The notes under the pieces are model-generated. The model saw only the letters and a program-made list of their open reading frames with translations, searched no databases and was not told the DNA's origin. Below, in pieces: positions 13,101-55,932 of a stretch of DNA of 64,000 nucleotides. The translations under genes were made by a program, and so were the position numbers. Numbering within the stretch: position 1 is the stretch's first letter; each line of letters begins with the position of its first letter. This DNA comes from Arthrobacter sp. D5-1 (GTDB lineage Bacteria; Actinomycetota; Actinomycetes; Actinomycetales; Micrococcaceae): assembly GCF_017357425.1 (NCBI RefSeq), contig NZ_CP014571.1, positions 3,410,001-3,474,000 on the forward strand, read 5' to 3'.

Positions 13101-14709
13101 GCAGGGACACCGCGAGGACGACGCCGGGCGCGAACTCGGTGCCGTGGCCCAACTTCCAGCCCACCACCATGGCGGTCACCATGGTCACGCTGAGTGGAAC
13201 ATAGCCGGGCAAGTCGTAAGCCCCGAGGGCCAAGACCACTGTCAGGATGGCTGCCGTCGCCAATTGAAGGCCCAGGCAGGACAAGGCGTCGTACCACCAG
13301 TGCCGCAGATTCAGCCCCTTACCCCCGAGCGCAACTCCCAGGGACTGGACTCCACAGCAAATAACTGCCGCTAGCATCACTGCGCTGACATCCGAGGTGG
13401 TATCCCACACCACTCCCAGCAACGCCAACGTCAGCGTTGCGCGCGCTCCGTAGGCGTGCTGCAGTCTGTACCGGGCCTGTGGAATGAAGGCCATTACGGC
13501 GAAGTACATGCCGCACATCAGCATGACCAGCGGGTACTCACCCTTGGCCAGGAGGTGAGGTGTGACCGTGACCGCAAGCGCCACCAAGGGCACTACATAG
13601 GGATGGAGCACCATCAGCGGACGGACATAAAGCGGTGGCAACCACCGCGGACGAGTCAGCGCACCCAGGGTCAGGACGATGGCGACTCCGATCAGCGCAG
13701 TGAAGTACCAGACCAAAGCGCCGCCCAGCACTGAAACTCCGGACCACGCGGTAGAGACAACGAAGCTCAGGGAAAGGAAGGCCAGGACCTTGTTGTCCAG
13801 ACGAACCGCGGTATACGTATAAACAGCTGTTCCCAGCAGTGAGGTGACCAGCCACGCGGCCGGACCGTTGGGCAGCACAAAGTTGTACATGGCAAGGCCC
13901 GTCACGGGAATGAGCGCCAAACCCGTGCCGACGAAGGCAACTGCGGCTGGACGCAACCGCGGCATTTTGGCATGGATGACCAAACCGGCAACGTAGAACA
14001 GGGTGGTGATGAAGCAGATACCTGCAAAGCGGAAGAGTGCAGGAAGGCTTGTCCCCACAAAGAGGGCACCCGCGGCGACCAAGAGAAGACTGGCTACGTA
14101 GAGCGTGACGTTGATGTTCTGTTGGTCGCGTTTGGCCTTACGGGCCGCGGCCGCCTCGGGAGTTTCCCGATGTATCGGTACCTGCTGGCCCGCTGCCCAC
14201 TGCGGCTGTGTGGCCATGACGGGACGCTGCGGGACTGCGGGAGGGTGAACGCCCGACGGCGGCTTGGGGGCCTGCGCTGGGAAGGGCACCGCCACGTGCG
14301 TCGGTGGATGCACTGAGTGCGCGGGGGCCTGCGCTGGGAAGGGCGCTGCCACGTGCGTCGGTGGATGCACTGAGTGCGCGGGGGCCTGCGCTGGGAAGGG
14401 CGCCGCCACGTGCGTCGGTGGATGCAGTGGTGCTGATGCAGGCATCACGGCGGCCCCGGCCCCGTAGGTTATCGGAGCCGAAGCGGCTGGTTGAGGGGGC
14501 GTCGACACCTCTGCAGCGTGGATCTTGGCCTCGGCGTCGCGCCAGCCGGCCATGTGGCCTGCCAGAAAGCCTGCCTGGTAGGCGCGGTGCTCAGCGATGC
14601 CTGTGGCGGCAGCGGTCCCCGCGGCATCTTTCCGGCCCCGGCCTCGACCGATGGCACTGCTCACCGCCGCTGTCACAGCAAGGAGTATCAGTACTAACAG
14701 GACTTCCAT
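10198..14709 (-). CDS. Giant polytopic membrane protein with terminal repeats (unknown function)
   Basis: This 1503-residue protein starts with ATG at 14709 after GGAGTAGCC. It has an N-terminal hydrophobic anchor (MEVLLVLILLAVTAAVSSAIG), then a linker of about 150 residues with His/Pro/Ala repeats. From about residue 200 to 1430 it has dozens of hydrophobic segments, typical of very large actinobacterial membrane proteins. It ends in five GGVPPQNFAP repeats. No catalytic motif is recognised. It lies between tuf and the GH1 gene, after the tuf terminator, so it is transcribed separately. An envelope or glycan-related role is possible but is not shown by the sequence. Confidence 0.85.
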   Translation of the reverse strand: MEVLLVLILLAVTAAVSSAIGRGRGRKDAAGTAAATGIAEHRAYQAGFLAGHMAGWRDAEAKIHAAEVSTPPQPAASAPITYGAGAAVMPASAPLHPPTHVAAPFPAQAPAHSVHPPTHVAAPFPAQAPAHSVHPPTHVAVPFPAQAPKPPSGVHPPAVPQRPVMATQPQWAAGQQVPIHRETPEAAAARKAKRDQQNINVTLYVASLLLVAAGALFVGTSLPALFRFAGICFITTLFYVAGLVIHAKMPRLRPAAVAFVGTGLALIPVTGLAMYNFVLPNGPAAWLVTSLLGTAVYTYTAVRLDNKVLAFLSLSFVVSTAWSGVSVLGGALVWYFTALIGVAIVLTLGALTRPRWLPPLYVRPLMVLHPYVVPLVALAVTVTPHLLAKGEYPLVMLMCGMYFAVMAFIPQARYRLQHAYGARATLTLALLGVVWDTTSDVSAVMLAAVICCGVQSLGVALGGKGLNLRHWWYDALSCLGLQLATAAILTVVLALGAYDLPGYVPLSVTMVTAMVVGWKLGHGTEFAPGVVLAVSLPFMGLLGAWPVSALLASAALYWSVRAAAHPASFRQPLVLAARLAVTVAAPTAAAGVFAESPDRIALSLVALVAAAGVQQLVSAWLERAGVHLLVPQATLAGFGGLAVAGLLVLPFVDRAAGHPLVGTAVLLVLFAGAASGALMFPPTRQSKAGVGSWRPTLGEVLAPATAIVAGVVASATVSLALGNVVLLVAVAYFAATAIRMPVSSHRQSYWWLARAAGTVLAGSSYFDAMRHGFSFSVAGELPKVALVVVAAGALQLVLPLQQSSRRRFPRASVVDAGAVVTVMAGAATVLTVSMASGEQFLRGGWQPGVAAIATALAAILCGVVLRRHSAAWLFAPAALVLLLALRLGSVRDVEILLGLFAAYSGFMVAAAKGRLVRGAYMLGLRVLSLAFIGVLVGDLSGSTTTVSMTLAVVLVLQHAVTWIQRSRGVDIAFQQAMVWGTLAAQLLLPAAYLLAVTYNGGGRWVVLIELGLCAASAVIAWRLLGIHGIQYFGIPAVVGGVIASGPSLTFPSGTWLYQPLLDRAQVPVVLLGLAAVLVVVRVVRATVRPGQGAAGHVAERWFWFIAAVAFVVTGGLLTLAVSYALAGLAVLVLASVLFAASHVEHLPALYLGAAPSMLVGAVPAVEGLLRDMAPGVWSDYAPWLVGGVGTAVLLYAVKRLGGAAISGEPLRRNALTGTAAVALASSAAIGLISDETSWVGFFLVVATGALVVVEIPYGKWLAGEIAALASLAALQRAVLFVGDTGPDWFWTVQWYVLAGAVLAGLRYMRKQRSEGLLRLVLAAGALSLTSLGTIFGGTAPQQLYVLVGHAVLLVAGLLLAERAMVWWGAVGVALSVMWALRSYAFAMLALVALALIVLAVWRLNRKPQLPGGVPPQNFAPGGVPPQNFAPGGVPPQNFAPGGVPPQNFAPGGVPPQNFAPGAASTDGFNRGDTSPDSAHSDGVYPGNASPGNAPWGQDRDGIR
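10331..10480. repeat. Five 30-bp tandem repeats (C-terminal PPQNFAP repeats)
   Basis: Five near-identical 30-bp units begin at 10331, 10361, 10391, 10421 and 10451. They encode five copies of a ten-residue Gly/Pro/Gln/Asn/Phe unit in the tail of the 1503-residue membrane protein. The unit is a multiple of three, so copy number can change without a frameshift. The near identity at DNA level suggests recent expansion. Confidence 0.95.
14266..14426. repeat. Three 57-bp tandem repeats (N-terminal HPPTHV repeats)
   Basis: Units starting at 14266, 14323 and 14380 are nearly identical and 57 bp long; the last is slightly incomplete. They encode 19-residue His/Pro/Ala-rich repeats (containing HPPTHVAAPFPAQAP) in the soluble linker after the first membrane helix of the 1503-residue protein. 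The frame is kept. Confidence 0.93.
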
Positions 14710-14783
14710 GGCTACTCCTTGATGTCACGGGAATCTGGCATTTCGCCGACGTTTATTCCAATCGATAGAGTAACTGTACCAAA

Positions 14784-42399: not shown

Positions 42400-43511
42400 A
42401 TGAAAATTGGCATTCTGACCAGCGGTGGCGACTGCCCCGGCCTCAACGCAGTGATCCGGGGAGCCGTCCTCAAGGGCATCGCCATCCACGGCCAGGAATT
42501 TGTGGGCTTCCGTGACGGCTGGCGTGGTGTTGTGGAAGGTGATGTCATTGACATCCCCCGCACCATGGTCCGCGGTATCGCCAAGCAGGGTGGCACCATC
42601 CTGGGCACATCCCGCACCAACCCGTTTGAAAACGGCGGTGGCCCGGACGTCATCAAAGCCCACATGGAACGCCTGGGCATTGACGCGATCATCGCCATCG
42701 GCGGCGAGGGAACCCTGGCAGCGGCCAAGCGCCTCACCGATGCAGGCCTGAAAATCGTCGGCGTCCCCAAGACCGTGGACAACGACCTCGATGCCACCGA
42801 CTACACCTTCGGCTTCGATTCACCGATGCAGGCCTGAAAATCGTCGGCGTCCCCAAGACCGTGGACAACGACCTCGATGCCACCGACTACACCTTCGGCT
42901 TCGATACCGCAGTCCAGATCGCCACGGAGGCCATTGATCGCCTCCGGACCACCGGGGAGTCCCACCACCGGTGCATGATCGCCGAAGTCATGGGCCGCCA
43001 TGTCGGCTGGATCGCCCTGCACGCCGGCATGGCCGCCGGCGCCCATGCCATCCTGATCCCCGAGCAGAAGGTCAGCATCGAGGAGATCACTGAGTGGGTC
43101 CAGGAAGCCCACGATCGTGGCCGCGCGCCCCTGGTAGTGGTTGCTGAAGGCTTCGTTCCGGAACATATGGAGTCCCCGCACTCCGAGCGCGGGCTGGATA
43201 CCTTTGGCCGTCCCCGCCTCGGCGGCATCGCGGACCAGCTGGCCCCCGAGATCGAGGCCCGCACGGGCATTGAAACCCGCGCCACGATCCTCGGCCACAT
43301 TCAGCGCGGTGGCGTCCCCACCGCCTACGACCGCGTTCTGGCAACCCGCCTGGGCATGGCCGCCATCGACTCCGTAGTGGACGGACGATGGGGCACCATG
43401 GTGGCCCTCAAGGGAACGGACATCTCCCACGTAGGCTTCGAGGAAGCCCTGGGCAAGCTCAAGACCGTACCGCAGCACCGCTACGACGAAGCGTCTGTGC
43501 TTTTCGGCTAG
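42400..43511 (+). pseudogene. pfkA: 6-phosphofructokinase, frameshifted by an 86-bp tandem duplication
   Basis: The enzyme phosphorylates fructose 6-phosphate in glycolysis. The first 140 residues are intact: SGGDCPGLNAVIR, GGEGT (101-105; Gly104 marks the ATP type) and KTVDND with catalytic Asp127. The frame then enters a second copy of 42734-42819, is shifted by two, and stops at 42837. The rest of the protein (TAVQIATEAIDRL to the end) continues in another frame to 43511. Removing one 86-bp copy restores a 341-residue protein, the normal length. The downstream part has no ribosome-binding site. It is either a real null mutation or an assembly error; the latter seems likelier for a central gene. 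Confidence 0.93.
42734..42905 (+). repeat. Perfect 86-bp tandem duplication inside pfkA
   Basis: Copy 1 is 42734-42819 and copy 2 is 42820-42905, both beginning TCACCGATGCAGG and ending CTTCGAT. The bases flanking the pair do not extend the identity, so the junction has no microhomology. Eighty-six is not a multiple of three, which shifts the frame. Confidence 0.98.
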
Positions 43512-43528
43512 TCGGTTAGGCTGAATCC

Positions 43529-44278
43529 ATGACTCTTGAGCCCACGTCCGCTGCCATTATCCAGCTGGCGTGGGCTCGCCATTTGGGGCTCGACGACGAC
43601 GCTTTCGCCACCGCCGCAGCCCGGCTCACCAACTCGACAACGGACCCCGGCGACCCCGCACACCGCATCACCCGCGTGGACGAATCAGCCCGGGCAGTGG
43701 TCTTCCTCAGGCTCTTCGGAGTTTCCGCGATGGTGGGGCCGCAGTGGGCCTTGGACGCCGCCGTCGGACTTCCTGATACAGAGCTCGCCCAACACGTGAC
43801 CCTGCTGACCCTGACCCGGTCCCATGGAGGGCACGGGCTGGGATCAACGGCCCTGTTCTTCGCTGACGATTTGCCGCTGCAGCAACCTTCCGACGACCTC
43901 ACAGTCTCCCGGGGCAACCCGGAGGCCATCAGCCTTGAAGGGCAGTGCCCTCCGGACGATGTCAATGAGGTGGGGCTGCAGGGCCTGGAACACCGGTTCA
44001 CCATCATGCACCCTGACGAGGCACCGCCCACCCCCGTGGCCTGCGGTGCCTACTCCGAATGGGAAGGCATCCTGGCCAACATGGGCGTTCTGGTGGCGCC
44101 TCCGTGGCGTCGCCGCGGCTTGGGAACCCTGGCGGCGTCCATTGCAGCCCACGAAGCATTGGCGTCCGGGCTGACCCTCCAGTGGAAAGCCGATGTCAGC
44201 AACACCGGAGCGCTCGCGATGGCCCGCAGCCTTGGCTTTGCCACGGGTGGGCTCCACGCTGGCGTGCTGCTCGGCTGA
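43529..44278 (+). CDS. GNAT-family N-acetyltransferase
   Basis: The 249-residue protein has its GNAT fold in the C-terminal half: GVLVAPPWRRRGLGTLAAS is motif A, and NTGALAMARSLGFATGG is the usual acceptor-side end. The N-terminal half is unfamiliar (residues 1-150, Ala/Thr/Asp-rich). It follows pfkA by 17 bases and ends in a long terminator. Substrate unknown. Confidence 0.82.
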   Translation: MTLEPTSAAIIQLAWARHLGLDDDAFATAAARLTNSTTDPGDPAHRITRVDESARAVVFLRLFGVSAMVGPQWALDAAVGLPDTELAQHVTLLTLTRSHGGHGLGSTALFFADDLPLQQPSDDLTVSRGNPEAISLEGQCPPDDVNEVGLQGLEHRFTIMHPDEAPPTPVACGAYSEWEGILANMGVLVAPPWRRRGLGTLAASIAAHEALASGLTLQWKADVSNTGALAMARSLGFATGGLHAGVLLG

Positions 44279-44290
44279 TTCCCCCAGATT

Positions 44291-44341
44291 TTGTCCACCT
44301 GATGCCCTTGAGGAGTCTTCTTCAGGGCATCAGGTGGACAA
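44291..44341. terminator. Bidirectional terminator, 18-base perfect stem
   Basis: 44291-44308 pairs perfectly with 44324-44341 (arm starts TTGTCCACCTGATGC). It lies between the convergent GNAT and MFS genes and probably ends both transcripts. Confidence 0.9.
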
Positions 44342-44345
44342 GACC

Positions 44346-45866
44346 CTAGGTGTTGAGGTCAGCCTTGGCAGTTTCCGGCGCGGATGCGGACCTGCCGCCC
44401 CAACCCTTTACTGACTTCGGCTTCCCAAAGAACAGCGCCACCACCGCGCCCAGCAGGATCGCGCAGGCGGGCAGCAGGATGGACTGGCTCATCGCCGTCG
44501 AGAATCCTGCATGAAGGGCTTCCGGCAGTACGCCGCCCATGGACGCTTCGCCCACGGGAGCACCGGCCGGGGCTGCGGGCAATTCCGCGGAGAGCCGCGA
44601 CTGGATCAGGGCAGCGATGGCCGCTGAACCCAGGACAGCACCGATTTGGCGGGTGGTGTTGAAGACACCGGAGCCTGCACCGGCCTGCCGCGGTTCCAGG
44701 TTGCGGGTGGTGGCGTTGGACACCGGTCCCCAGATGAAGGCGTTGGCAACACCTTGCAGCGCGCTGGGCAACAGGAACATCCAGATGGGAGTGTCCGGTC
44801 CCAGCAGGGCAGCGGTCCAGAAGAGGGCTCCTGCCATGCAGAGCAGGCCAAACGAGGCAAAGTATCGAGGATTCGCCCGGTCAATGAGCTTGCCTACGAA
44901 CGGTGCCAGGGCACCGGAAATAACGGCCATGGGGATCATGAGCAGCGCCGACTGGGTGGGCGTCAATCCGCGGACCGTCTGGTAGTAGAAGATGGTTGGC
45001 AGCGGGAACGCCGTCACCGTGAAACCGACGGCCATGATGGTGGTGTTGCCCAGGGAGAAGTTGCGGTCCTTGAACAGGCCAAGTGGCAGCAGCGGTTCCC
45101 CGCCCCGGCGTTCAAGGAGCCATTGCCAGAGCACAAAGAGAACCAGGACCACCAGTCCGGTGATGATCAGCCCCCAAACGGTGACGAATCCGGTGACCGT
45201 TCCCCACTTGTAGGTCTGGCCTTCCTGGATGCCAAAGACCAGCAGGAACATGCCGACGGCGGACAGCACCACGCCGAGAACGTCGAACGAGTGCGTGTGG
45301 GTGGTCAGTTTCGGTACGAAACGCATCACCAGGATGAAGGCCACGATCCCAATGGGGACGTTGACGAAGAAGATCCATTCCCAACCCAGGCTGTCCACCA
45401 GCACGCCGCCAAGAATAGGGCCAACCAGCACGGCCATGCCGGCGGTAGCTCCCCACAGCCCCATGGCCGCACCGCGGCGGTCCGGCGGGAAGATTCGGGT
45501 GATGACGGCCATGGTCTGGGGCGTCATCATGGCTGCACCCAGGCCTTGGAGGACACGGGCGGCGATCAACATGGTGACGTCACCGGAGAGACCGCACCAC
45601 AACGACGCAAGGGTGAAGACCACCAGGCCTATCAGGTAAAGGTTCTTCGGTCCGAACCGGTCCCCCAGCCTCCCGGTGATGAGCAGGGGCACTGCGTACG
45701 CCAGCAGATAGGCGCTGGTGACCCAGATGACGGCATTTATGTCCGTGTTGAGGCCCTCCATGATCCGCGGATTCGCGACCGACACGATGGTGGTGTCGAT
45801 GAGGATCATGAAGAAGCCCACCACGAGTGACCACAGCGCGGGCCACGGCTTAGCTACGTTTTCCAA
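44346..45866 (-). CDS. MFS multidrug exporter (DHA2/EmrB-QacA type), TTG start
   Basis: From TTG 45866 (MENVAKPWPALWSLVVGFFM), with AAAGGA five bases in front, the product is 506 residues with about 14 membrane helices. Motifs seen are FFMILIDTTIVSVA in the first helix, GRLGDRFGPKNLYL (motif A) and GPILGGVLVDSLGWEWIFF (motif C, typical of drug/H+ antiporters). The gene overlaps the stop of the padR gene by 17 bases, so the regulator and pump are co-transcribed. The likely role is export of a toxic compound under PadR control; the substrate is unknown. Confidence 0.92.
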   Translation of the reverse strand: MENVAKPWPALWSLVVGFFMILIDTTIVSVANPRIMEGLNTDINAVIWVTSAYLLAYAVPLLITGRLGDRFGPKNLYLIGLVVFTLASLWCGLSGDVTMLIAARVLQGLGAAMMTPQTMAVITRIFPPDRRGAAMGLWGATAGMAVLVGPILGGVLVDSLGWEWIFFVNVPIGIVAFILVMRFVPKLTTHTHSFDVLGVVLSAVGMFLLVFGIQEGQTYKWGTVTGFVTVWGLIITGLVVLVLFVLWQWLLERRGGEPLLPLGLFKDRNFSLGNTTIMAVGFTVTAFPLPTIFYYQTVRGLTPTQSALLMIPMAVISGALAPFVGKLIDRANPRYFASFGLLCMAGALFWTAALLGPDTPIWMFLLPSALQGVANAFIWGPVSNATTRNLEPRQAGAGSGVFNTTRQIGAVLGSAAIAALIQSRLSAELPAAPAGAPVGEASMGGVLPEALHAGFSTAMSQSILLPACAILLGAVVALFFGKPKSVKGWGGRSASAPETAKADLNT

Positions 45867-46479
45867 GGGATTCCTTTGGCTTGTGTGAAGTGTCTGATGG
45901 AGCCGGCAGGGGTTCGTCCCAGGGCAGGTGCCCGTTGCCCAACTCCTCGAGGAGGCCGCGGATCCACGCGATCTCCGTTCGGCGCATTGCTTGTTGATAC
46001 GTGATGTCAATCCAGTACTTACGGGCAAGTCCCTTGGCCGTCACCGTGGCCTCCGCCCGGACCAGGAAGTCGAGATCGGCAGTGAGTGCTACCACCCGTT
46101 CTTCCAGCAGCTCCGCCACCGTGCTGGAAGGGAGGTGATGCGCTTCGGCGATGGCATGCGGAAAGAGTGGGTACTCGTTGACCGGGGTTGACAGCATGGC
46201 TTGGAGCCGGGCTTCCAGGGCGTCGTGTCCGGCGTCAGTGATCCGGTACGTGGTCCGCTCAGGACGGTTGCCCTCCCGTTCCGTGCCTGTTGCCTCGACC
46301 AGCCCGCTTTCCTCCAGACGGCCAACGGCGTGATAAAGCGTCCCTGGCCTGACCTTGACCAGGCGGTCCTCGTGCCGCGCCATCAGCACTTGATACATCT
46401 CGTAGGGATGCAGAGGTTGTTCCGCCAGGAGCGCCAGAGACGCGACACCCAAGGGGGTCAGCTCAGCAGCTTTGGGCAT
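45850..46479 (-). CDS. PadR-family transcriptional regulator
   Basis: The start at 46479 (MPKAAELTPLGVASLALLAE) follows GGAAAGAGG and gives 209 residues. The N-terminal winged helix has the PadR hallmarks (HPYEMYQVLMARHED, VRPGTLYHAVGRLEESGLV, RTTYRITDAGHDAL). The C-terminal helical part is of the longer PadR subtype (Vir_act_alpha_C). A perfect 16-base palindrome lies about 40 bases upstream and is its probable operator. It probably represses itself and the downstream exporter until a ligand binds. Confidence 0.94.
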   Translation of the reverse strand: MPKAAELTPLGVASLALLAEQPLHPYEMYQVLMARHEDRLVKVRPGTLYHAVGRLEESGLVEATGTEREGNRPERTTYRITDAGHDALEARLQAMLSTPVNEYPLFPHAIAEAHHLPSSTVAELLEERVVALTADLDFLVRAEATVTAKGLARKYWIDITYQQAMRRTEIAWIRGLLEELGNGHLPWDEPLPAPSDTSHKPKESLGKRS

Positions 46480-46501
46480 GCCAAACCTCTTTCCGCAAGT
46501 A

Positions 46502-46532
46502 ATATTCCACCACAACTATTCCACGTGGAATA
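46502..46532 (-). promoter_or_regulatory. Putative PadR operator
   Basis: TATTCCACGTGGAATA (46517-46532) is a perfect 16-base palindrome. A half copy (ATATTCCAC) lies at 46502-46510, 15 bases away. The pair lies 23-53 bases upstream of the padR start. PadR-family operators are often imperfect palindromes of this size with ATGT/ACAT-like arms; this one has a different core, so direct binding is an inference. Confidence 0.7.
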
Positions 46533-46545
46533 TAGGGGCGCAAAT

Positions 46546-46574
46546 AAGCCCGACCGCTGTGGGCGGTCGGGCTT
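46546..46574 (-). terminator. Terminator after the ankyrin gene
   Basis: A perfect 12-base stem (46546-46557 with 46563-46574) with a short loop and AAGCCCGACCGC arm lies just after the ankyrin gene stop on the minus strand. Confidence 0.87.
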
Positions 46575-46588
46575 GAGTGCTTGAGGAC

Positions 46589-47002
46589 TCAGCCCAGGAG
46601 GGCCTGGATCTCCGTCCGCGCAAACATGGTTGCAGCATCACGCGCGGAGGGGGTTCCGGCGTCGGGGTCCGCTCCTGCATCCAACAGCGCCCGGGCGACG
46701 GCCGTGTAGCCCTTGAACACCGCCCCGGCAAGGGGCGTCTGGCCGCGGTCGTTGGCGGCGTTGACGTCCGCGCCGTGATGGAGGATCACCTGCACGGCTT
46801 CCTCGTGCCCGTGGTAGGCCGCAAGCATCAGCAGCGAGTCGCCGGCAGCGTTGGTCAGGGTTGCGGGAGCGCCCGCATTCAAGTAGCTCCGAAGCACGTC
46901 GGTGTCGCCTTCACGGGCAGCATCAAACAATGCATGGGCAAGGGCCAACGTTTCGTCGTCGACACCTGCGTCGTGGCCGGCAGGGCCTGTGGGCTGGCTC
47001 AT
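46589..47002 (-). CDS. Ankyrin-repeat protein
   Basis: From ATG 47002 (MSQPTGPAGHDAGVDD) the product is 137 residues with about three ankyrin repeats: GDTDVLRSYLNAGAPATLTN, GDSLLMLAAYHGHEEAVQVI then LHHGADVNAAND, and GQTPLAGAVFKGYTAVARAL. Ankyrin repeats bind other proteins. The start overlaps the ygfZ stop as ATGA, so the two are translationally coupled. No enzyme domain is present and the partner is unknown. Confidence 0.92.
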   Translation of the reverse strand: MSQPTGPAGHDAGVDDETLALAHALFDAAREGDTDVLRSYLNAGAPATLTNAAGDSLLMLAAYHGHEEAVQVILHHGADVNAANDRGQTPLAGAVFKGYTAVARALLDAGADPDAGTPSARDAATMFARTEIQALLG

Positions 47003-48084
47003 CGGTGGGGTCCCTTCAGGAATCCGGTCTGGCGCCCGACAACCTGGCCGGCGTCGGGGGCGACGATCACTTCCTGGGCGGCAATGTACGGCTCCTCGCC
47101 ATCCATCACCGTCAGGGACTCCTCCGCCGAAACGGAACGCTTGATCACGGCCAAAGCCACGGGTCCCATTTCGAAGTGCTGCGCCACCGATGTCAGAGTA
47201 CCCACCTTGCGCTCCCCGGCAAATACAACACTTCCCACAGCCGGCAACGTGTGCTGCGAACCGTCCAACTGCAGGAACACGAGGCGGCGCGGCGGATGGC
47301 CCAGGTTGTGGACGCGGGCGATGGTCTCCTGCCCCTTGTAGCAGCCCTTGTTCAGATGGACCGAGGTCCTCAGGAGATCCAGTTCGTGGGGAATCGTCTT
47401 TTCGTCGGTCTCGGCACCCAGGCGCGGCCTCCATGCCGCGACCCGCAGGGCGTCCGCAGCCATCGCTCCAGCCAGGGGAAGGCCCTCAACCGTCTGCTCA
47501 AGCTCCGCCGCAGGGACGAGGTATTCGAACCACGGCCGCTCGAGCCCAGGGTGCGACTCCTCCGGGACAATGCTGTACGCATAGCCGCCCGGGCTGACAT
47601 GCGGCCAGGGATCTTCCCACACCAGGCGGGACGAGAACTGCTCCACGGGCTTGGTGGCGCCAAGAACTGCCCACTGCTCCGAAGCGTCCTCAATCTCCAC
47701 CCGAAGCATGAACTTCATCTTGTTCAGCCACTCGGCCAGAGGTGCAGCCTCTGCGGCCTCCACGATCAGCCAAGTGGTCTCGCCGTCGTCGATAACCCTG
47801 GCATCAAACTCGATGCGGCCCTGGACGCTGAGCAGCAGCAGTTCGCTGGCGACGCCAGGCTGGAGGTTGGTGAGCTGCTGCGAGGACAGCGTATTGAGCC
47901 AGCTGAGCCGGTCCGGTCCGGACACGGTCACCACACCCCGGTGGGAAAGATCGACGACGGCGGTGCCGGCTGCCAAGGCACGCTGCTCACGCAGCGGCTC
48001 GCCATAGTGGGCAGCGACGCCGGCGTCCAGGCCGGTGTCCTCGACGGCGCCAGGGCGCGACAACAGAGGGCTCGTGTAAGTCAT
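46999..48084 (-). CDS. ygfZ: YgfZ/GcvT folate-binding protein (Fe-S cluster repair)
   Basis: From ATG 48084 (MTYTSPLLSRPGAVEDTG) the product is 361 residues. It has the GcvT-like fold and the YgfZ signature near residue 250 (LNKGCYKGQETIARVHN) with the conserved Cys in KGCYKGQE. Family members use folate in the maintenance of certain Fe-S enzymes. It overlaps the downstream ankyrin gene by four bases. A longer upstream frame adds an unconvincing segment with no ribosome-binding site. Confidence 0.92.
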   Translation of the reverse strand: MTYTSPLLSRPGAVEDTGLDAGVAAHYGEPLREQRALAAGTAVVDLSHRGVVTVSGPDRLSWLNTLSSQQLTNLQPGVASELLLLSVQGRIEFDARVIDDGETTWLIVEAAEAAPLAEWLNKMKFMLRVEIEDASEQWAVLGATKPVEQFSSRLVWEDPWPHVSPGGYAYSIVPEESHPGLERPWFEYLVPAAELEQTVEGLPLAGAMAADALRVAAWRPRLGAETDEKTIPHELDLLRTSVHLNKGCYKGQETIARVHNLGHPPRRLVFLQLDGSQHTLPAVGSVVFAGERKVGTLTSVAQHFEMGPVALAVIKRSVSAEESLTVMDGEEPYIAAQEVIVAPDAGQVVGRQTGFLKGPHR

Positions 48085-48139
48085 ATGTAGTAGAAGTCCT
48101 TGCAGCTCAGCAGTATTCCGGGGGTGGCGATATTTCAGG

Positions 48140-48862
48140 TCAGCGGTATTCAGGATTTTCGAAGTCGAACCGGGTACCCGCTTTCCATTCCTCCGGCAGG
48201 TTGCCGTAAGCCGGGATACCCCCGGCATCCCTGAGGATTTTGGCCATGTGCAGCAGGTTCCAGGTCATGAACGTGGTGTTCCTGTTAGTAAAATCACTCT
48301 CAGGACCACCCGATCCTTCGTCCAGATAGCTGGGACCGGGACCCACGGGACCGATCCATCCGGCGTCCGCCTGGGGTGGGATGGTGAAGCCGATGTGCTG
48401 GAGGCTGTACAGCACATTCATGGAACAGTGCTTGATGCCGTCCTCGTTGCCCGTGATGAGGCAACCGCCCACCTTGGGATAAAACGCCCATTGGCCGTTG
48501 CTGTTCAACTCGCCGGAGTGGGCATACAGCCGCTCGATGAGTTTCTTGGTTTGGGAGGAATTGTCACCCAACCAGATGGGGCCGGCCACCACCACGATGT
48601 CGGCCTCGCGGACATCAGGGTAGATCCCGGGCCACTCGTCCGTTGCCCAGCCATGCTGGCGCATATCGGGATAGACACCGCTGGCAATGTCATGGTCAAC
48701 GGTCCGGACAAGCTTGGTAGTGACACCCTGCTTCTCCATGATGTCCCGGCTGATCTTGATCAGCCCGTCAGTGTTACTGGGTTGCGGTGAAGGCTTCAGC
48801 GTGCCATTGAAGAAGACGGCCTTGAGGCCCTCGTAGCCTTCGGGCTTGAGGTGGGTGTTCAC
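48140..48862 (-). CDS. Flavodoxin-like NAD(P)H-dependent oxidoreductase
   Basis: The 240-residue protein has the FMN-binding flavodoxin fold: FFNGTLKPSPQPSNTDGL binds phosphate, IVVAGPIWLGDNSSQTKKLI is the wrapping loop, and GCLITGNEDG lies near the flavin ring. It probably reduces quinones or nitro/azo compounds with FMN. It stands alone between ygfZ and the nitrobindin-like gene on the same strand. The physiological substrate is not known. Confidence 0.85.
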   Translation of the reverse strand: MNTHLKPEGYEGLKAVFFNGTLKPSPQPSNTDGLIKISRDIMEKQGVTTKLVRTVDHDIASGVYPDMRQHGWATDEWPGIYPDVREADIVVVAGPIWLGDNSSQTKKLIERLYAHSGELNSNGQWAFYPKVGGCLITGNEDGIKHCSMNVLYSLQHIGFTIPPQADAGWIGPVGPGPSYLDEGSGGPESDFTNRNTTFMTWNLLHMAKILRDAGGIPAYGNLPEEWKAGTRFDFENPEYR

Positions 48863-48913
48863 TTTCTGCTCCTTCTGCTGGCTGCTTGCTGGAACGTCCG
48901 GTGAAGCCCCGGG

Positions 48914-49513
48914 TCAGGACACCTTGTGCAGGAATGCCGAGGCGTGGGCTTCGAGTGCTTTGCCGCTGGCAGCAACATCCCACCGCCACAGGAGGTTCCC
49001 GTCCACCAGGCCGAAGATCCGGGTGGCTGCGGTGTATTCCTTGGAGTGGCTCCCACGCATCACCATGTCGGTGCTCAGCTGGATCTGGGGTCCCTTGATC
49101 TGACCGTAGTAAAGCTCGGTGATGCCACCGGGGTGCGCAATCGACACCGAGATGTCGAAGCCGCCGTCTTTGTTGCGGCGCTCTTCCACATCGTCGGCGG
49201 TCTTGAGAACCGGGACGATGTCCGCAGGAATCAGGCCGGGTCCGCCGTCGCCTTCCTGGAGCTTCCGCTCCAAGGCCCAGAACCCGGTTTCGACAGTCAA
49301 CGGACGCAACTTTGCGCCGTCGTCGTCACTGAGCCAGGTCTCGGCCCTGTACTGCAGGTAGGGCAAGCCATTATGGGTGAAGGAAACGTGCTGGACGAAA
49401 TGCTCGGAATCCTCGTCACCGCTGCCGAGTCGGCCGCGTCCTTCCCACTCACCAATGAGCCAGGAAAGGGGGACGAGTTCAGGCGTCAGATCAGTAGGGA
49501 TCTCAATAGGCAC
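48914..49513 (-). CDS. Nitrobindin-like FABP-family heme-binding protein
   Basis: The 199-residue protein begins MPIEIPTDLTPELVPLSWLI and has the nitrobindin motif GEWEGRGR. Later come a beta-barrel pattern and GDNLLWRWDVAA-like strands with a C-terminal His near the end (HASAFLHKVS). Nitrobindins bind heme and act on nitric oxide or peroxynitrite. The position in the barrel of the proximal His cannot be read precisely. Standard 190-200 residue length. Confidence 0.85.
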   Translation of the reverse strand: MPIEIPTDLTPELVPLSWLIGEWEGRGRLGSGDEDSEHFVQHVSFTHNGLPYLQYRAETWLSDDDGAKLRPLTVETGFWALERKLQEGDGGPGLIPADIVPVLKTADDVEERRNKDGGFDISVSIAHPGGITELYYGQIKGPQIQLSTDMVMRGSHSKEYTAATRIFGLVDGNLLWRWDVAASGKALEAHASAFLHKVS

Positions 49514-49549
49514 AACGACTACCTCTGTTGGAGAGCAGGACCGGAAAGT

Positions 49550-49663
49550 TTACTTCTGGCCCTTGAAAAGGCGGTAAACGACAAAACCTGCGAACCATGC
49601 CATGGCAACGCTGGCCAGGCCAAGGAGGACGAGGAAGAAGATTTCAAATGCGAGTACAGACAT
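49550..49663 (-). CDS. Small membrane protein, 37 residues
   Basis: A short frame starts ATG at 49663 after GGATGG and encodes one hydrophobic helix (FEIFFLVLLGLASVAMAWF) with a basic end (RLFKGQK). It lies between the 244-residue membrane protein and the nitrobindin-like gene on the same strand with small gaps, so it fits an operon. Function unknown; it resembles short single-pass proteins common in actinobacteria. Confidence 0.68.
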   Translation of the reverse strand: MSVLAFEIFFLVLLGLASVAMAWFAGFVVYRLFKGQK

Positions 49664-49679
49664 GATGCCATCCTAACCG

Positions 49680-50414
49680 TTAGTAGATGAGTAGTTTGTC
49701 TATGAAGTACACCAAGGCCCCCACGGCCCAGACGGGGGCAACTCCCATTCCCACGGCTGCCGGAATGTTCAGGCGGCCGCGCCGAAGGGTGGTCATCCGC
49801 CGGAAGGACACGAGGACGGAGCCAACCACCACGCCAACCAACGCCGCGGGAAGTACTGCAATATCAGAGAATACAAGACCGGCGAGGGGACCCATGAGTC
49901 CGGCCATGACGACACCCAGCGGAGCCACGATACGGTCAGGCCACCGGATGATTCCCACCATCAGGGCCACTGCCGCGCTCAGGCCGGCCACCAGGACCAT
50001 TTCCTTCACTCCGTTGAACCGTGCGCCGGCAATCCACCCTGCGCCCAGGCAATTCAAGAGCACGCCGGCACAGCATCCGAGTGTTGATTCCAGGCGCTGC
50101 GCCTGCCCCGTTCCGCGGACAAGCTGGACAACGAAGACCGCCATCACGCCTACGGCAATGAAGGCCGGCGTCCCTTCCAGGAATCCAGGAGCCGGAAGGT
50201 AGGCTGCGGTCACTGCCGATCCCGCACCGGCCAACCCGATCACCGCCGCCAGCGTTTTCTTGGCAGGGACACCAAGGAAATGCGGCCAGCCAATCCCCAC
50301 GGCCGCGGAGGCAGCAATGCCGACGCCCACCATGGCTTCCCGGGAAACGAAGGTGCTGGCCACGATGGCTGTGAGCGCCACGAGTCCAAATACCCCGATG
50401 CTCCAAGACTTCAC
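49680..50414 (-). CDS. Polytopic membrane protein (unknown function)
   Basis: The 244-residue protein has about seven hydrophobic helices from the first residues on (WSIGVFGLVALTAIVASTF). The loops are short and no catalytic or transporter motif is recognised. It is the first gene of a minus-strand group with the 37-residue peptide and the nitrobindin-like gene. It may be annotated as a permease, but nothing here proves transport. Confidence 0.75.
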   Translation of the reverse strand: MKSWSIGVFGLVALTAIVASTFVSREAMVGVGIAASAAVGIGWPHFLGVPAKKTLAAVIGLAGAGSAVTAAYLPAPGFLEGTPAFIAVGVMAVFVVQLVRGTGQAQRLESTLGCCAGVLLNCLGAGWIAGARFNGVKEMVLVAGLSAAVALMVGIIRWPDRIVAPLGVVMAGLMGPLAGLVFSDIAVLPAALVGVVVGSVLVSFRRMTTLRRGRLNIPAAVGMGVAPVWAVGALVYFIDKLLIY

Positions 50415-50674
50415 TGTGTGCCGACCTCAATCCGATGCGCCTTACGACCTCTCGACAATCCTGCCTTATGCCGGCCCAATATGTCGTAATTCCGGTGTCC
50501 GCCCGTCACGAATCCATGTGTCGCAGGGCACTGATGGGTATACTCAGACTTCAACGGTGCACTGTATTGGCCTTGATCCCGTTACAACGGGCAGAGGCTG
50601 CCAATGCGCTGTGACCGGCCGGGAATCTCCGGTTTCGACGCCCGATGATGCGCGTACAGCCCATTGGAGGAACT
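50415..50674. other. Divergent promoter region upstream of glnR
   Basis: These 260 bases lie between the membrane-protein gene (minus) and glnR (plus). A good -10 hexamer (TATACT, 50539-50544) is on the plus strand about 130 bases before glnR; the -35 is poor. No gene is supported. Confidence 0.45.
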
Positions 50675-51373
50675 ATGTCGCACATCCTGCTCCTGACGAA
50701 CAGCACCGGCTCATCGGTGGACATTTTGCCTGCCTTGGAGTTGCTGAACCACCGCGTACACATTCTCCCGGCAGAACCCACGGCCCTGCTTGAAACCGAT
50801 CCCACGGACATCGTTTTCCTTGATGCCCGCAAGGATCTGGTGGGGGCCCGCTCCTTGACCCAACTGCTGAAAGCCACCGGGCTCAGCGCTCCACTCATGC
50901 TCATCCTCACGGAGGGCGGCATGGCTGCCGTCTCCTCGGCCTGGGCAGTGGATGACATTGTGCTGGACTCCGCCGGACCGGCCGAGGTGGAAGCCCGTAT
51001 CCGCCTCGCCATGGCAAGGGCGGTTCCCGGCGAAGAGGAAACCCAGACGGAGATCCGTGCTGCCGGCGTCGTGATTGACGAAGCGAGTTATACCGCCCGG
51101 GTCAGCGGCCAGCCCCTGAACCTGACGTTCAAGGAATTTGAACTCCTGAAGTACCTGGCGCAGCACCCGGGACGGGTATTCACGCGCCAACAACTGCTGA
51201 CCGAGGTCTGGGGCTATGACTACTACGGAGGCACCCGCACCGTGGACGTCCACATCCGGCGGCTCCGCGCCAAGCTCGGAGTGGATCACGAGAACCTGAT
51301 CAGCACGGTCCGCAACGTGGGCTACCGGCTCACGCTGGTGCGACTCCCGGATGACGAACTCTCGGAGGCCTGA
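50675..51373 (+). CDS. glnR: GlnR-type nitrogen regulator (OmpR family, atypical receiver)
   Basis: The ATG at 50675 follows GGAGGAACT and gives 232 residues. The receiver-like N-terminus ([37 protein letters not shown]) lacks the usual acidic pair and matches actinobacterial GlnR, an orphan regulator of nitrogen assimilation. The C-terminal winged helix is complete ([40 protein letters not shown]). No partner kinase is next to it. It ends in a terminator. GlnR is by far the best family match; other OmpR regulators have a normal receiver. Confidence 0.9.
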
Positions 51374-51411
51374 GCGGCCCCGGCACGATCCCCAAAACCT
51401 GACGACACATA

Positions 51412-51447
51412 AAAGAGGCCGGAATCCCTGCGGATTCCGGCCTCTTT
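51412..51447 (+). terminator. Terminator of glnR
   Basis: A perfect 16-base stem (51412-51427 with 51432-51447, arm AAAGAGGCCGGAATCC) and a 4-base loop, with CTTT at its end, 39 bases after the glnR stop. Confidence 0.92.
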
Positions 51448-51455
51448 CATCTTCT

Positions 51456-51510
51456 TGGTGGAGGACATACGGGTCGAACGTATCGAGGCCACCCCACTGG
51501 TGGATCCCCC
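51456..51510 (-). other. tRNA-like 3' half (T arm, acceptor strand, CCA) between glnR and mshD
   Basis: On the minus strand the 3' end reads GTCCTCC, A, CCA: a 7-base acceptor strand, discriminator and encoded CCA. Before it is a perfect T arm, ATACG-TTCGACC-CGTAT (51467-51483), with canonical T-loop bases. No complete tRNA is present: no anticodon arm fits and no GGAGGAC start exists. GGGGGAT (51504-51510) could pair with the acceptor strand (two wobbles), enclosing only a short hairpin CCACC-loop-GGTGG. It is a tRNA remnant, an attachment-site relic or an odd tRNA-like RNA. The 3' half is convincing; function is unknown. Confidence 0.5.
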
Positions 51511-51594
51511 CTGCGCTGGCTTAAGAAGCTGACTTACTGTGCCTCAAGTCACGCGCACCCGGAAAACTGGCCCGTCCTGATCATCGCCGGCGCC

Positions 51595-52515
51595 TTGGAC
51601 CCCGATCTCCTCAGGGACGTCAAGACCCTCGCCGCCGCAGCCGGGGAGTCCGACGGGAACCCGCCTTTTTCGGAGCAGACGCTGGTGATGCTGCGGGGCG
51701 TCGATTCCGGAGACCACTCGGTCTTGTCCTTGGCCCTTTACGCACCGGACGAAGATTCCGATCCGGCCACGGCTGAAGACCTGGCGGGAATCGCCGTCGT
51801 CGTTTTGGCGCCCGACTCAAGCGGCGTGCTGGAGCTGGCCGTCCACCCGAGCTATCGCAACCAGGGTGTGGCCGGAAGGCTGCTGGGCGCCCTGCAGGAC
51901 AAGCGGAGCCTCGACGGACTCAGCGCATGGTCGCATGGGAACCACGAGGCCGCCGCCGAGCTCGCCACCCGTTTCGGATACGGACCGGTCCGTGAGCTGT
52001 GGAAGATGCGGCTCATGTCCTCTGCGTCTGCACTGCCCGACGCCGGCCTCCCGGACGGGGTCTCTCTCCGCGCCTTCGTTCCAGGCCAGGATGAGCAAGC
52101 GTGGCTGGCAGCCAACCGCGCTGCGTTCTCCCACCACCCTGAGCAGGGATCGATGACCCTGGCGGACCTCGAAGCCCGGAAGGCTGAGGACTGGTTCGAT
52201 CCCGCAGGGTTCCTCTTGGCCGTCAACACCGACGGGGAGCTCCTGGGTTTCCACTGGACCAAAGTCCATCCCCGGCAGGGTCCGCACCCGGCCATCGGCG
52301 AGGTGTATGTGGTGGGCGTTACTCCAGCGGCGCAAGGGCTGGGGCTGGGCAAGGCCCTGACGGTCGCTGGAATCAAGCACCTCCAGGAAAAAGGACTGCA
52401 TGCAGTCATGCTGTACGTGGACGCCGACAACCAGGCAGCGGTAGCCCTATATCAGAAACTCGGTTTCGTTCGCTGGGACACCGATGTGATGTATGGACCT
52501 TTAACCAAAAATTAA
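51595..52515 (+). CDS. mshD: Mycothiol synthase, N-terminus unclear
   Basis: MshD acetylates Cys-GlcN-Ins in the last step of mycothiol synthesis. The 306-residue product from TTG 51595 has two GNAT domains; the first carries ELAVHPSYRNQGVAGRLLGA and the second VYVVGVTPAAQGLGLGKALT then YVDADNQAAVALYQKLGF. The family usually has about 20 more residues; here ENWPVLIIAGALDPDLL is readable upstream (51562-51609) but no ATG, GTG or TTG is in frame there. A GTG at 51539 is one frame off, as if one base were missing. The TTG has no ribosome-binding site, so the start is in doubt. Confidence 0.85.
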   Translation: MDPDLLRDVKTLAAAAGESDGNPPFSEQTLVMLRGVDSGDHSVLSLALYAPDEDSDPATAEDLAGIAVVVLAPDSSGVLELAVHPSYRNQGVAGRLLGALQDKRSLDGLSAWSHGNHEAAAELATRFGYGPVRELWKMRLMSSASALPDAGLPDGVSLRAFVPGQDEQAWLAANRAAFSHHPEQGSMTLADLEARKAEDWFDPAGFLLAVNTDGELLGFHWTKVHPRQGPHPAIGEVYVVGVTPAAQGLGLGKALTVAGIKHLQEKGLHAVMLYVDADNQAAVALYQKLGFVRWDTDVMYGPLTKN

Positions 52516-52618
52516 CCCGGCGTGATTGCCGGACGGAATGCCGGTGACATCTATGATTCGGGCAGCCCAATTGCTTGTAATGTGGGAGGAAACCCCGTCC
52601 TGAGCTTAGGAGAACCCC

Positions 52619-54868
52619 ATGCAGCCGGACCCCGTCGGCACCGCCGGATCCACCTCGAAGGGTGCAACCTTGCCCCCACGCTTCGGATCTTCGGAAGTGC
52701 CGGCCTCGCGTGCCACCCAGGACCGCATCGATATTCCGGAATTCGCACCGAGCCTGGAGCCGGAAGGCGACATCTCTCCGGACCGTTTCCTGGACCGCGA
52801 GCTGAGCTGGCTGGCCTTCAACTCCCGTGTGCTGGAACTCGCCGAAGATCCTGAACTTTTCCTGCTGGAACGTGTCAGTTTCCTGTCGATTTTTGCCTCG
52901 AACCTGGACGAGTTCTTCATGGTCCGCGTTGCCGGCCTCAAGAGGCGTATCGCCACGGGCCTGGCTGTGCCCTCCCCGGCCGGGCTGAGCCCCATTGAGG
53001 TGCTGGAACAGATCAGTGAAGAGGCCCACAGGCTTCAGGAGCGTCACGCAAGGGTCTTCGCTGAGCAGATCCGACCTGCACTGGCTTACGAGCACATCCA
53101 CATCATGCACTGGCATGAACTGGATGAGGATGCCCGCCACCGGATCAGCATCATGTTCCAGGAGAAGGTCTTCCCCATCCTGACACCGCTTGCTGTGGAC
53201 CCAGCGCACCCCTTCCCCTACATCTCCGGCCTCTCCCTCAACCTTGCCGTGATCGTCAGCAACCCGATCAGCGACAAAGAGCTTTTCGCACGCGTCAAGG
53301 TACCGGACCAGCTTCCCCGCCTCATTTCCGTGGACGGACCGCGTGCAGGCGCCATTCCGGGCCGCGTAGCCCGGTTCATCGCGCTCGAAGAGGTCATTGC
53401 CGTCCACCTGGATAAGCTTTTCCCCGGCATGGAAGTCCTGGAGCACCACACCTTCCGTGTCACCCGCAATGAGGACCTGGAAGTTGAAGAGGACGACGCC
53501 GAGAACCTCCTGCAGGCCTTGGAGAAGGAACTGCTGCGTCGCCGCTTCGGCCCGCCGGTACGGCTGGAAGTCACCACGGACATCAACCCGAACATCAAGG
53601 CCCTGCTGATCCGTGAACTCGGGGTTGAAGAGTCCGAGGTCTACTCCGTTCCCGCACCGTTGGATCTCCGCGGACTGTCAGCCATCAGCGCCATTGACCG
53701 CGCGGATCTGCACTACCCCAAGCATGTCCCGCACACTTCCCGCTACCTTAACGAGTCCGAGACCTCGAAGGCCGCCAATGTCTTCGCCGCGATGCGCCGC
53801 AGGGACATCCTGCTCCACCACCCCTACGACTCGTTCTCCACCTCGGTCCAGGCTTTCCTGGAACAAGCGGCCGCGGATCCCAAGGTGCAGGCCATCAAAC
53901 AGACCCTTTACCGGACGTCTGGTGACTCCCCCATCGTTGACGCCCTCATCGATGCCGCCGAGGCAGGTAAACAAGTCCTGGCCCTTGTTGAAATCAAAGC
54001 CCGCTTTGATGAGCAGGCCAACATATCGTGGGCGCGCAAGCTGGAACAGGCGGGCGTTCACGTGGTGTACGGCATCGTGGGCCTGAAAACCCATTGCAAG
54101 TTGTCCCTGGTGGTTCGACAGGAAGTGGACGGCCTCCGCCGCTACTGCCACATCGGCACCGGCAACTACCACCCCCGCACGGCCCGCTACTACGAAGACC
54201 TTGGCCTTCTGACGGCCAATGAACAAGTGGGCGAGGACTTGTCCAAACTGTTCAACCAGCTCTCCGGCTACGCGCCGAAGTCCACGTTCAAAAGGTTGCT
54301 CGTTGCGCCGCGGTCCGTGCGGGCCGGCTTGATGGACAGGATTGAAACCGAAATCCGCAACGCCCAGGCCGGCGTGCCCGGATTGGTACAGATCAAGGTC
54401 AACTCGATGGTGGACGAAGCCATCATCGATGCCCTCTACCGGGCCTCACAGGCCGGTGTGAAGGTTGACGTCGTGGTGCGCGGCATCTGCTCCCTGCGCC
54501 CTGGCGTGCCGGGACTCAGCGAGAACATCAGGGTCCGTTCCGTCCTGGGTCGCTTCCTTGAACACTCACGCGTCTTTGCTTTTGGCAACGGTGGCGATCC
54601 CGTGGTGTACATCGGCTCCGCCGACATGATGCACCGCAACCTGGACCGCCGCGTAGAGGCGCTGGTGCAGCTGGCCAGCAAGGAAGATACAGCTACCGTC
54701 ATGGACCTGCTGCGTCGCTATGTTGATGACGGGACTGCCAGCTGGCACCTGGACGATCACGGACACTGGACCAGGCACCACTTGGACCAGGACGGCAAGC
54801 CATTGCTGGACATGCAATCCTGGCTCCTGGCCTCCCGTTCGCGCCAGCGGGCATCGGCACGGCGGTAG
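52619..54868 (+). CDS. ppk: Polyphosphate kinase
   Basis: The 749-residue enzyme (PPK1 type) makes polyphosphate from ATP. The N and H domains begin near [20 protein letters not shown]. The catalytic region has [15 protein letters not shown] and [20 protein letters not shown] with the phospho-accepting and assisting histidines. The start follows AGGAGAACCCC. The downstream mutT1-like gene starts nine bases after its stop, a conserved actinobacterial pairing. Confidence 0.97.
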
Positions 54869-54877
54869 AGGAACCAC

Positions 54878-55932
54878 TTGAACAGCGATACCCCCGTGGC
54901 GGATCAGACTGACCACCCCGGCGAGTCGGTGGCTGTTGTAGCAGCCGGTGCCATTCCGTGGCGGATCAACAAGGGTGCCCTTGAGGTTCTCCTCATCCAC
55001 CGGCCTCGGTACGACGATTGGTCCTGGCCTAAAGGAAAGCTCGACGCCGGCGAAACAGTCCCTGAGTGCGCAGCACGTGAAGTGTGGGAAGAGATTGGCC
55101 TCCAGGCTCCTGGCCTAAAGGAAAGCTCGACGCCGGCGAAACAGTCCCTGAGTGCGCAGCACGTGAAGTGTGGGAAGAGATTGGCCTCCAGGCTCCCTTG
55201 GGCATACCGCTTCCCGCCATTCACTACCATGTGTCTGCGGGTTTGAAGGTGGTCCGCTACTGGGCTGTCCGGGTCAACGGAGCCCAGCTCAGGCCCGACG
55301 GCAAGGAAGTGGACAGCGTCATGTGGTGCAGCCCTGACAGGGCGGCCGCATTCCTGAGCAACCCCACCGATACGGAGCCGCTCGAATACCTCGAAAAAGC
55401 GCACATCCGCGGTGAGCTGGACACCTGGCCACTGGTGCTGATCCGCCATGCCAAGGCCAAGCCCCGGTCCTCCTGGACCAAGGCTGAGGGCGACCGTCCG
55501 TTGGCAGCGACGGGCCAGCGGCAGGCAGTTGCCGTTCAACGCCTCCTGGAGGTTTGGAAGCCGCAGCGGGTGGTCACCAGCCCTTGGGCACGGTGTGTTG
55601 CCACGATCGCCCCTTATGCCAAAGCCAGCGGGGCCAAGGTGAAACTGGTGGAGGCACTCACGGAGCACAGCCACCACCGCTCCCCCAAGAAGACTGCTGC
55701 AGCGGTGGAGGCTTTGTTCGACAAACAGGTTCCGATCGCCGTCTGCACTCACCGCCCTGCGCTTCCTACTGCCTTGAAACAGCTGGGACAACACATGTCG
55801 CACGGCTTGAAAGCCCTCCTGCCGGAATCAGACCCATACCTGACACCAGGCGAAGTGATTGTCTGCCAGGTGGCGCGTGGATCTGAGAGGAAGATTGTTT
55901 CCGTGGAACAGGTCAAGCCTTTCGACGACTAG
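54878..55932 (+). pseudogene. mutT1: Nudix hydrolase/histidine phosphatase (MutT1-like), frameshifted by an 86-bp duplication
   Basis: TTG 54878 follows GAGGAAC. The N-terminal Nudix domain (residues to about 78) has a full Nudix box from GKLDAGE to REVWEEIGL. The gene then repeats 55022-55107, loses the frame, and the first product stops at 55246. A second frame, with its own copy of the Nudix box, runs to 55932 and carries the histidine phosphatase domain (LIRHAKAKPRSSW). Deleting one copy gives a 322-residue MutT1-like protein, the usual Nudix plus phosphatase layout. MutT1 cleans oxidised guanine nucleotides and related phosphates. Either a true mutation or an assembly artefact. Confidence 0.92.
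55022..55193 (+). repeat. Perfect 86-bp tandem duplication inside the mutT1-like gene
   Basis: Copy 1 is 55022-55107 and copy 2 is 55108-55193; both begin TCCTGGCCTAAAGG and end CTCCAGGC. The junction has 3 bases of microhomology (TCC). The unit includes the whole Nudix box. The length, 86 bp, equals that in pfkA although the sequences are unrelated. Confidence 0.98.

Follow-up and report, generated by a model that had tools for sequence, protein, structure and literature searches.

Two tandem duplications of exactly 86 bp in the genome assembly of Arthrobacter sp. D5-1 probably result from one segment joined untrimmed at both ends

In the genome assembly of Arthrobacter sp. D5-1, a 6-phosphofructokinase gene and a MutT1-like NUDIX/phosphatase gene are each broken by a perfect tandem duplication of 86 bp. 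Both duplications are probably a single assembly artefact, produced when a 12.3-kb segment was joined to its neighbours with the overlaps left untrimmed. It is more likely that the repeats arose in silico than that the living cell had them. Read literally, the assembly describes a strain without a working MutT1-like enzyme, which suggests a raised mutation rate, and without one phosphofructokinase. Both losses are probably false.

Results

The genome consists of 5,121,291 bases in three contigs, designated C1 (4,738,058 bases), C2 (316,012 bases) and C3 (67,221 bases). The window, i.e. the whole stretch of 64 kb that was analysed, corresponds to C1:3410001-3474000, and positions without a contig name refer to it. 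Including the window, 2,847,233 bases were scanned, which is 55.6% of the genome. The coordinates of the features are compiled in Table 1.

Table 1. Features of the two duplicated sites and of the segment between them
Feature	Position	Strand	Remarks
Site 1 unit, first copy	42734..42819	+	Inside phosphofructokinase gene
Site 1 unit, second copy	42820..42905	+	Identical to first copy; end homology none
Site 2 unit, first copy	55022..55107	+	Inside NUDIX/phosphatase gene; unrelated to site 1 unit
Site 2 unit, second copy	55108..55193	+	Identical to first copy; matching continues for 3 bases, to 55196
Putative separately assembled segment	42820..55107		Distance between duplications and gene order in G136; separateness inferred
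6-Phosphofructokinase gene, broken in this assembly	42400..43511	+	Open frames 42400-42837 and 42861-43511; PF00365 in two pieces
MutT1-like NUDIX and histidine-phosphatase gene, broken in this assembly	54878..55932	+	Open frames 54878-55246 and 55084-55932; PF00293, PF00300

Tandem Repeats Finder and an exact-match script agreed on both duplications. At site 1 (42734-42905) the match run at a period of 86 was exactly 86 bases long, and at site 2 (55022-55193) it was 89 bases long; the end homology was 0 bp and 3 bp, respectively. Exact repeats of this kind are far beyond chance. Since 86 is not divisible by 3, both reading frames are broken. The best local alignment between the units of the two sites scored 8 on the same strand and 9 on the opposite strand, and since these scores were equalled in 58% and 37% of 1000 shuffles, the units are unrelated. 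Repeat finding, reading frames and shuffles thus confirmed the preliminary description, which had reported two perfect, tandem, frame-breaking units of 86 bp with unrelated sequences. The starts of the duplications are 12,288 bases apart (3 x 4096) with an ambiguity of 3 bases, and the segment between them therefore measures 12,288 to 12,291 bases.

No other array within the window had a unit exceeding 57 bp, the rows of period 60, 90 and 120 being multiples of a single 30-bp array and not separate arrays. The units of the arrays at 10328 (30 bp x 5) and 14266 (57 bp x 3) are multiples of three. Both arrays lie in frame near the two ends of one open frame of 1508 codons (10201-14724, minus strand, stop to stop). 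Runs of small hydrophobic residues, recognised by eye, suggest that this frame encodes a membrane protein.

In the phosphofructokinase gene, the pieces before and after the break matched positions 1-142 and 126-276 of the 277 positions of the Pfam PFK model PF00365. A second phosphofructokinase with an open frame of 452 amino acids is present at C1:2183566-2184447. For both pieces of the NUDIX/phosphatase gene the top model was NF052459 (NCBIfam MutT1, 8-oxo-(d)GTP phosphatase). Each piece is partial and reached only 72.5 and 124.2 bits, below the curated cut-off of 475 bits, and the gene is therefore referred to as MutT1-like only. Among the matches listed, the closest relatives of its protein have 322 amino acids.

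Both genes had matches in all 36 same-genus genomes, and the NUDIX/phosphatase gene was matched in 120 of 121 genomes, the genome under study included; the sole miss was a genome that is 63% complete. The best protein matches to the two genes were at 96% (among the best 120 of 1523) and 94% (among the best 120 of 7965), in a database clustered at 90%, which is too coarse to show if the same species also has intact proteins.

Among named relatives, those nearest in this region belong to Paenarthrobacter and Arthrobacter, with a DNA identity of at most about 87%. When 110 relative loci were searched with each unit, the site 1 unit was present in 89 and the site 2 unit in 77, presence being defined as a match over 50 bp or more; every one of these loci (89/89 and 77/77) had a single copy. 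In the remaining loci the site was not reached or the sequence was too diverged, and some loci may be the same genome obtained through two collections. An alignment-offset test on 80 relative loci was abandoned in favour of these unit counts, as the 70 and 68 loci spanning the sites were all split and the alignments overran, giving offsets from 13 to 158. The contig WNZI01000028.1 is labelled Vibrio cholerae strain 35D; the response regulator that it encodes is 81% identical to the Arthrobacter-type query, and the record may be mislabelled or contaminated.

The nearest genome found, here called G136, is 93-96% identical across 14 kb with conserved gene order, and it is shorter by exactly 86 bp at each of the two sites (the matches overlapped by 86 bp at site 1, and by 87 minus one shared query base at site 2). 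An intergenic stretch at 51533-51546 has 14 bases here versus 79 in G136. The remaining gaps in the aligned parts are intergenic, one base beyond the NUDIX gene, or within a divergent stretch at 46534-46993, where a single-base gap at 46841 lies within an open frame. On this comparison, the assembly is not generally noisy in this region.

A scan of the whole genome for perfect tandems of period 86 had been proposed, in the expectation of further seams. In the 2,847,233 bases scanned only the two known sites were found; there was no third tandem of this period, either perfect or decayed (at least 72% identity), and the unbroken 1.58 Mb around the window (C1:2850001-4434000) contained no further seam. 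Nor did the scanned part hold the many tandem duplications of other lengths that, according to the preliminary description, would have spoken against an artefact: one comparable tandem of 115 bp was detected, and the others were explained otherwise.

The 115-bp tandem (C1:4076793-4077023) is perfect, with a match run of 116 and an end homology of 1 bp. It is located just after a gene that, from its translation, is presumably of the LysR type. The end of this gene lies in the first copy, and the gene remains intact. The unit also occurs once, with 83% identity, in a paralogous region at C1:4051414, and a search for the region of the tandem in G136 found nothing. This tandem may represent either a third seam or a duplication of the ordinary kind.

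On C2, an incomplete 873-bp tandem (C2:120561, match run 853) and a 303-bp tandem with an end homology of 17 bp (C2:124853) are less than 5 kb apart. The other arrays in the scanned part had units of 30-39, 57, 60 or 66 bp, and many had a unit of 31 or 32 bp. A short motif, of which 14 bases were used for the search and which often forms 32-bp tandem repeats, occurred at 35 places in about 17 clusters on C1, and at none in the window, C2 or C3 (within the 2.85 Mb scanned).

The region C1:254464-257365 shows perfect tandems of 668 and 787 bp, but these were rejected as support for untrimmed joins, because they represent an ISL3-type insertion sequence (PF01610) nested in its own copy. At both levels the element has 8-bp target duplications of similar sequence, as read by eye, and it lies close to where the 23S gene begins in a ribosomal RNA operon (end of 16S and 23S identified by Rfam). 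This copy of the 23S gene looks interrupted. Three direct repeats, at C1:1743085 (86 bp), C1:2888535 (85 bp) and C1:3172655 (105 bp), were likewise discarded, since they consist of paired tRNA genes (Asn, Lys and Met). All exact, non-tandem direct repeats of 85-105 bp at most 300 bp apart in the scanned 55.6% were either such tRNA pairs or part of a 60/66-bp coding array.

As a control, 80 relative loci (1,581,003 bases) were scanned, and no near-perfect tandem with a period above 63 was found. At the rate of the genome under study (3 per 2.85 Mb), zero would be expected about one time in five, and the control is thus too small to prove an excess in this genome.

Discussion

We infer that a separate segment existed and was joined untrimmed. 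The segment between the sites would have been assembled apart from its neighbours and would have overlapped each of them by 86 bases. Joining both ends with the overlaps left in place would then have produced the perfect tandem copies, while the organism itself would have one copy per site and two intact genes. A single join event of this kind accounts together for the equal length, the perfection, the lack of end homology and the closeness of the duplications.

In favour of an artefact are the equal length at unrelated sites, the perfect copies with almost no end homology, the single copy in all relatives with the unit, the conserved order and 86-bp difference at both sites in G136, the rarity of such tandems in the scanned 55.6%, the closeness of the two sites, and the presence of the broken genes throughout the genus. 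Against it, neither unit recurs, a third 86-bp seam was absent from the scanned 55.6%, the 115-bp tandem has another length, and the sequence around the sites appears well assembled when compared with G136.

The proposal that the genes are intact and the duplications an assembly artefact is thus favoured by equal length, perfection and single copies in relatives, but a de Bruijn graph with k = 87, the specific cause given for it, is unsupported. In such graphs neighbouring contigs are described as having fixed k-1 overlaps, 86 bases at k = 87 (PMC9215042), which assemblers have to remove (PMC5481147), and spurious broken genes made by assembly have been documented (PMC11017572). In the present genome no 20-mer of either unit was found elsewhere in the 2.85 Mb scanned. 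In searches of the whole genome, the first step of which was loose, site 1 yielded only a paralogous phosphofructokinase stretch with 76% identity and site 2 yielded nothing else. As neither unit recurs, a break of the graph at these sites is not explained by a genomic repeat, which weakens the case for k = 87; the breaks would have to come from errors in the reads or from variants of the strain. Contigs from SPAdes overlap by k itself, which is an odd number, and an overlap of 86 bases would therefore suggest an assembler that leaves k-1 overlaps.

The foremost alternative, although an unlikely one, is that the sequenced strain or its culture recently acquired two real tandem duplications whose lengths agree by coincidence. 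Such duplications would leave one phosphofructokinase and the MutT1-like enzyme inactive, and slippage between the copies could remove the extra copy again. The 115-bp and 303-bp tandems indicate that real duplications probably occur in this genome, the region is otherwise clean in comparison with G136, and the second phosphofructokinase could make the loss of the first bearable. However, equal lengths would be expected by chance for two duplications in only 0.23% of cases if lengths are log-uniform between 40 and 1000 bp, or in 0.53% between 40 and 300 bp, and for any two of three duplications in 0.69% (log-uniform, 40-1000 bp). Two random sites fall within 12.3 kb of each other in about 0.9% of cases. 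The length distribution is an assumption, and the figures for equality and for closeness were both computed after the fact. In addition, end homologies of 0 and 3 bp offer little for slippage, no unusual hairpin or single-strand structure was predicted at either unit (z 0.07 and 0.92), and the events would need to have struck two widely conserved genes at a distance of 12 kb.

The length of the segment, 3 x 4096, may hint at block processing or be a coincidence. In another computing artefact, the sequence would have been processed block by block with a margin of 86 bases, and a single block of 12,288 bases would have retained its two margins. With a range of 12,288-12,291, a multiple of 4096 would be hit for about 1 in 1000 random lengths. 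The match was noticed after the fact, however, and the error would not be systematic, as judged from the lack of further seams in the 1.58 Mb scanned unbroken around the window. To our knowledge, no tool uses an 86-base margin, and this origin is regarded as quite improbable.

Scars of a mobile element that made 86-bp target duplications and was precisely excised in two places would give equal lengths at unrelated sites, and some insertion sequences do make long target duplications; yet no element flanked by 86-bp repeats was recognised in the scanned 55.6%, where close direct repeats of 85-105 bp were accounted for as above, the one insertion sequence looked at (ISL3-type) makes 8-bp duplications, and such scars are highly improbable. 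It is hardly to be expected either that some cellular process producing clean tandems of a fixed 86 bp without end homology, a mobile element for example, hit both neighbouring genes.

An untrimmed segment thus remains the preferred explanation. An inexpensive way to look for untrimmed joins in finished genomes is to search for perfect tandems of equal length that disrupt conserved genes and enclose a single segment.

Of the known ways in which such repeats arise, microhomology-mediated tandem duplication also gives perfect adjacent copies that break a gene. It involves several bases of homology at the ends of the unit. Here only 0 and 3 bp were found, and the lengths are equal at unrelated sites. 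The spurious assembly pseudogenes of Cooley and Wright (2024, PMC11017572) are similar in that conserved genes seem broken in one assembly, but that work is summarised in terms of frameshifts and internal stops in general, not of duplications of equal length as in this genome. The untrimmed k-1 overlap of de Bruijn contigs differs from the present case in that neither overlap is a genomic repeat here and only one segment is affected in the scanned part. It is alike in its perfect adjacent copies, in a fixed length at unrelated sequences, and in needing no end homology.
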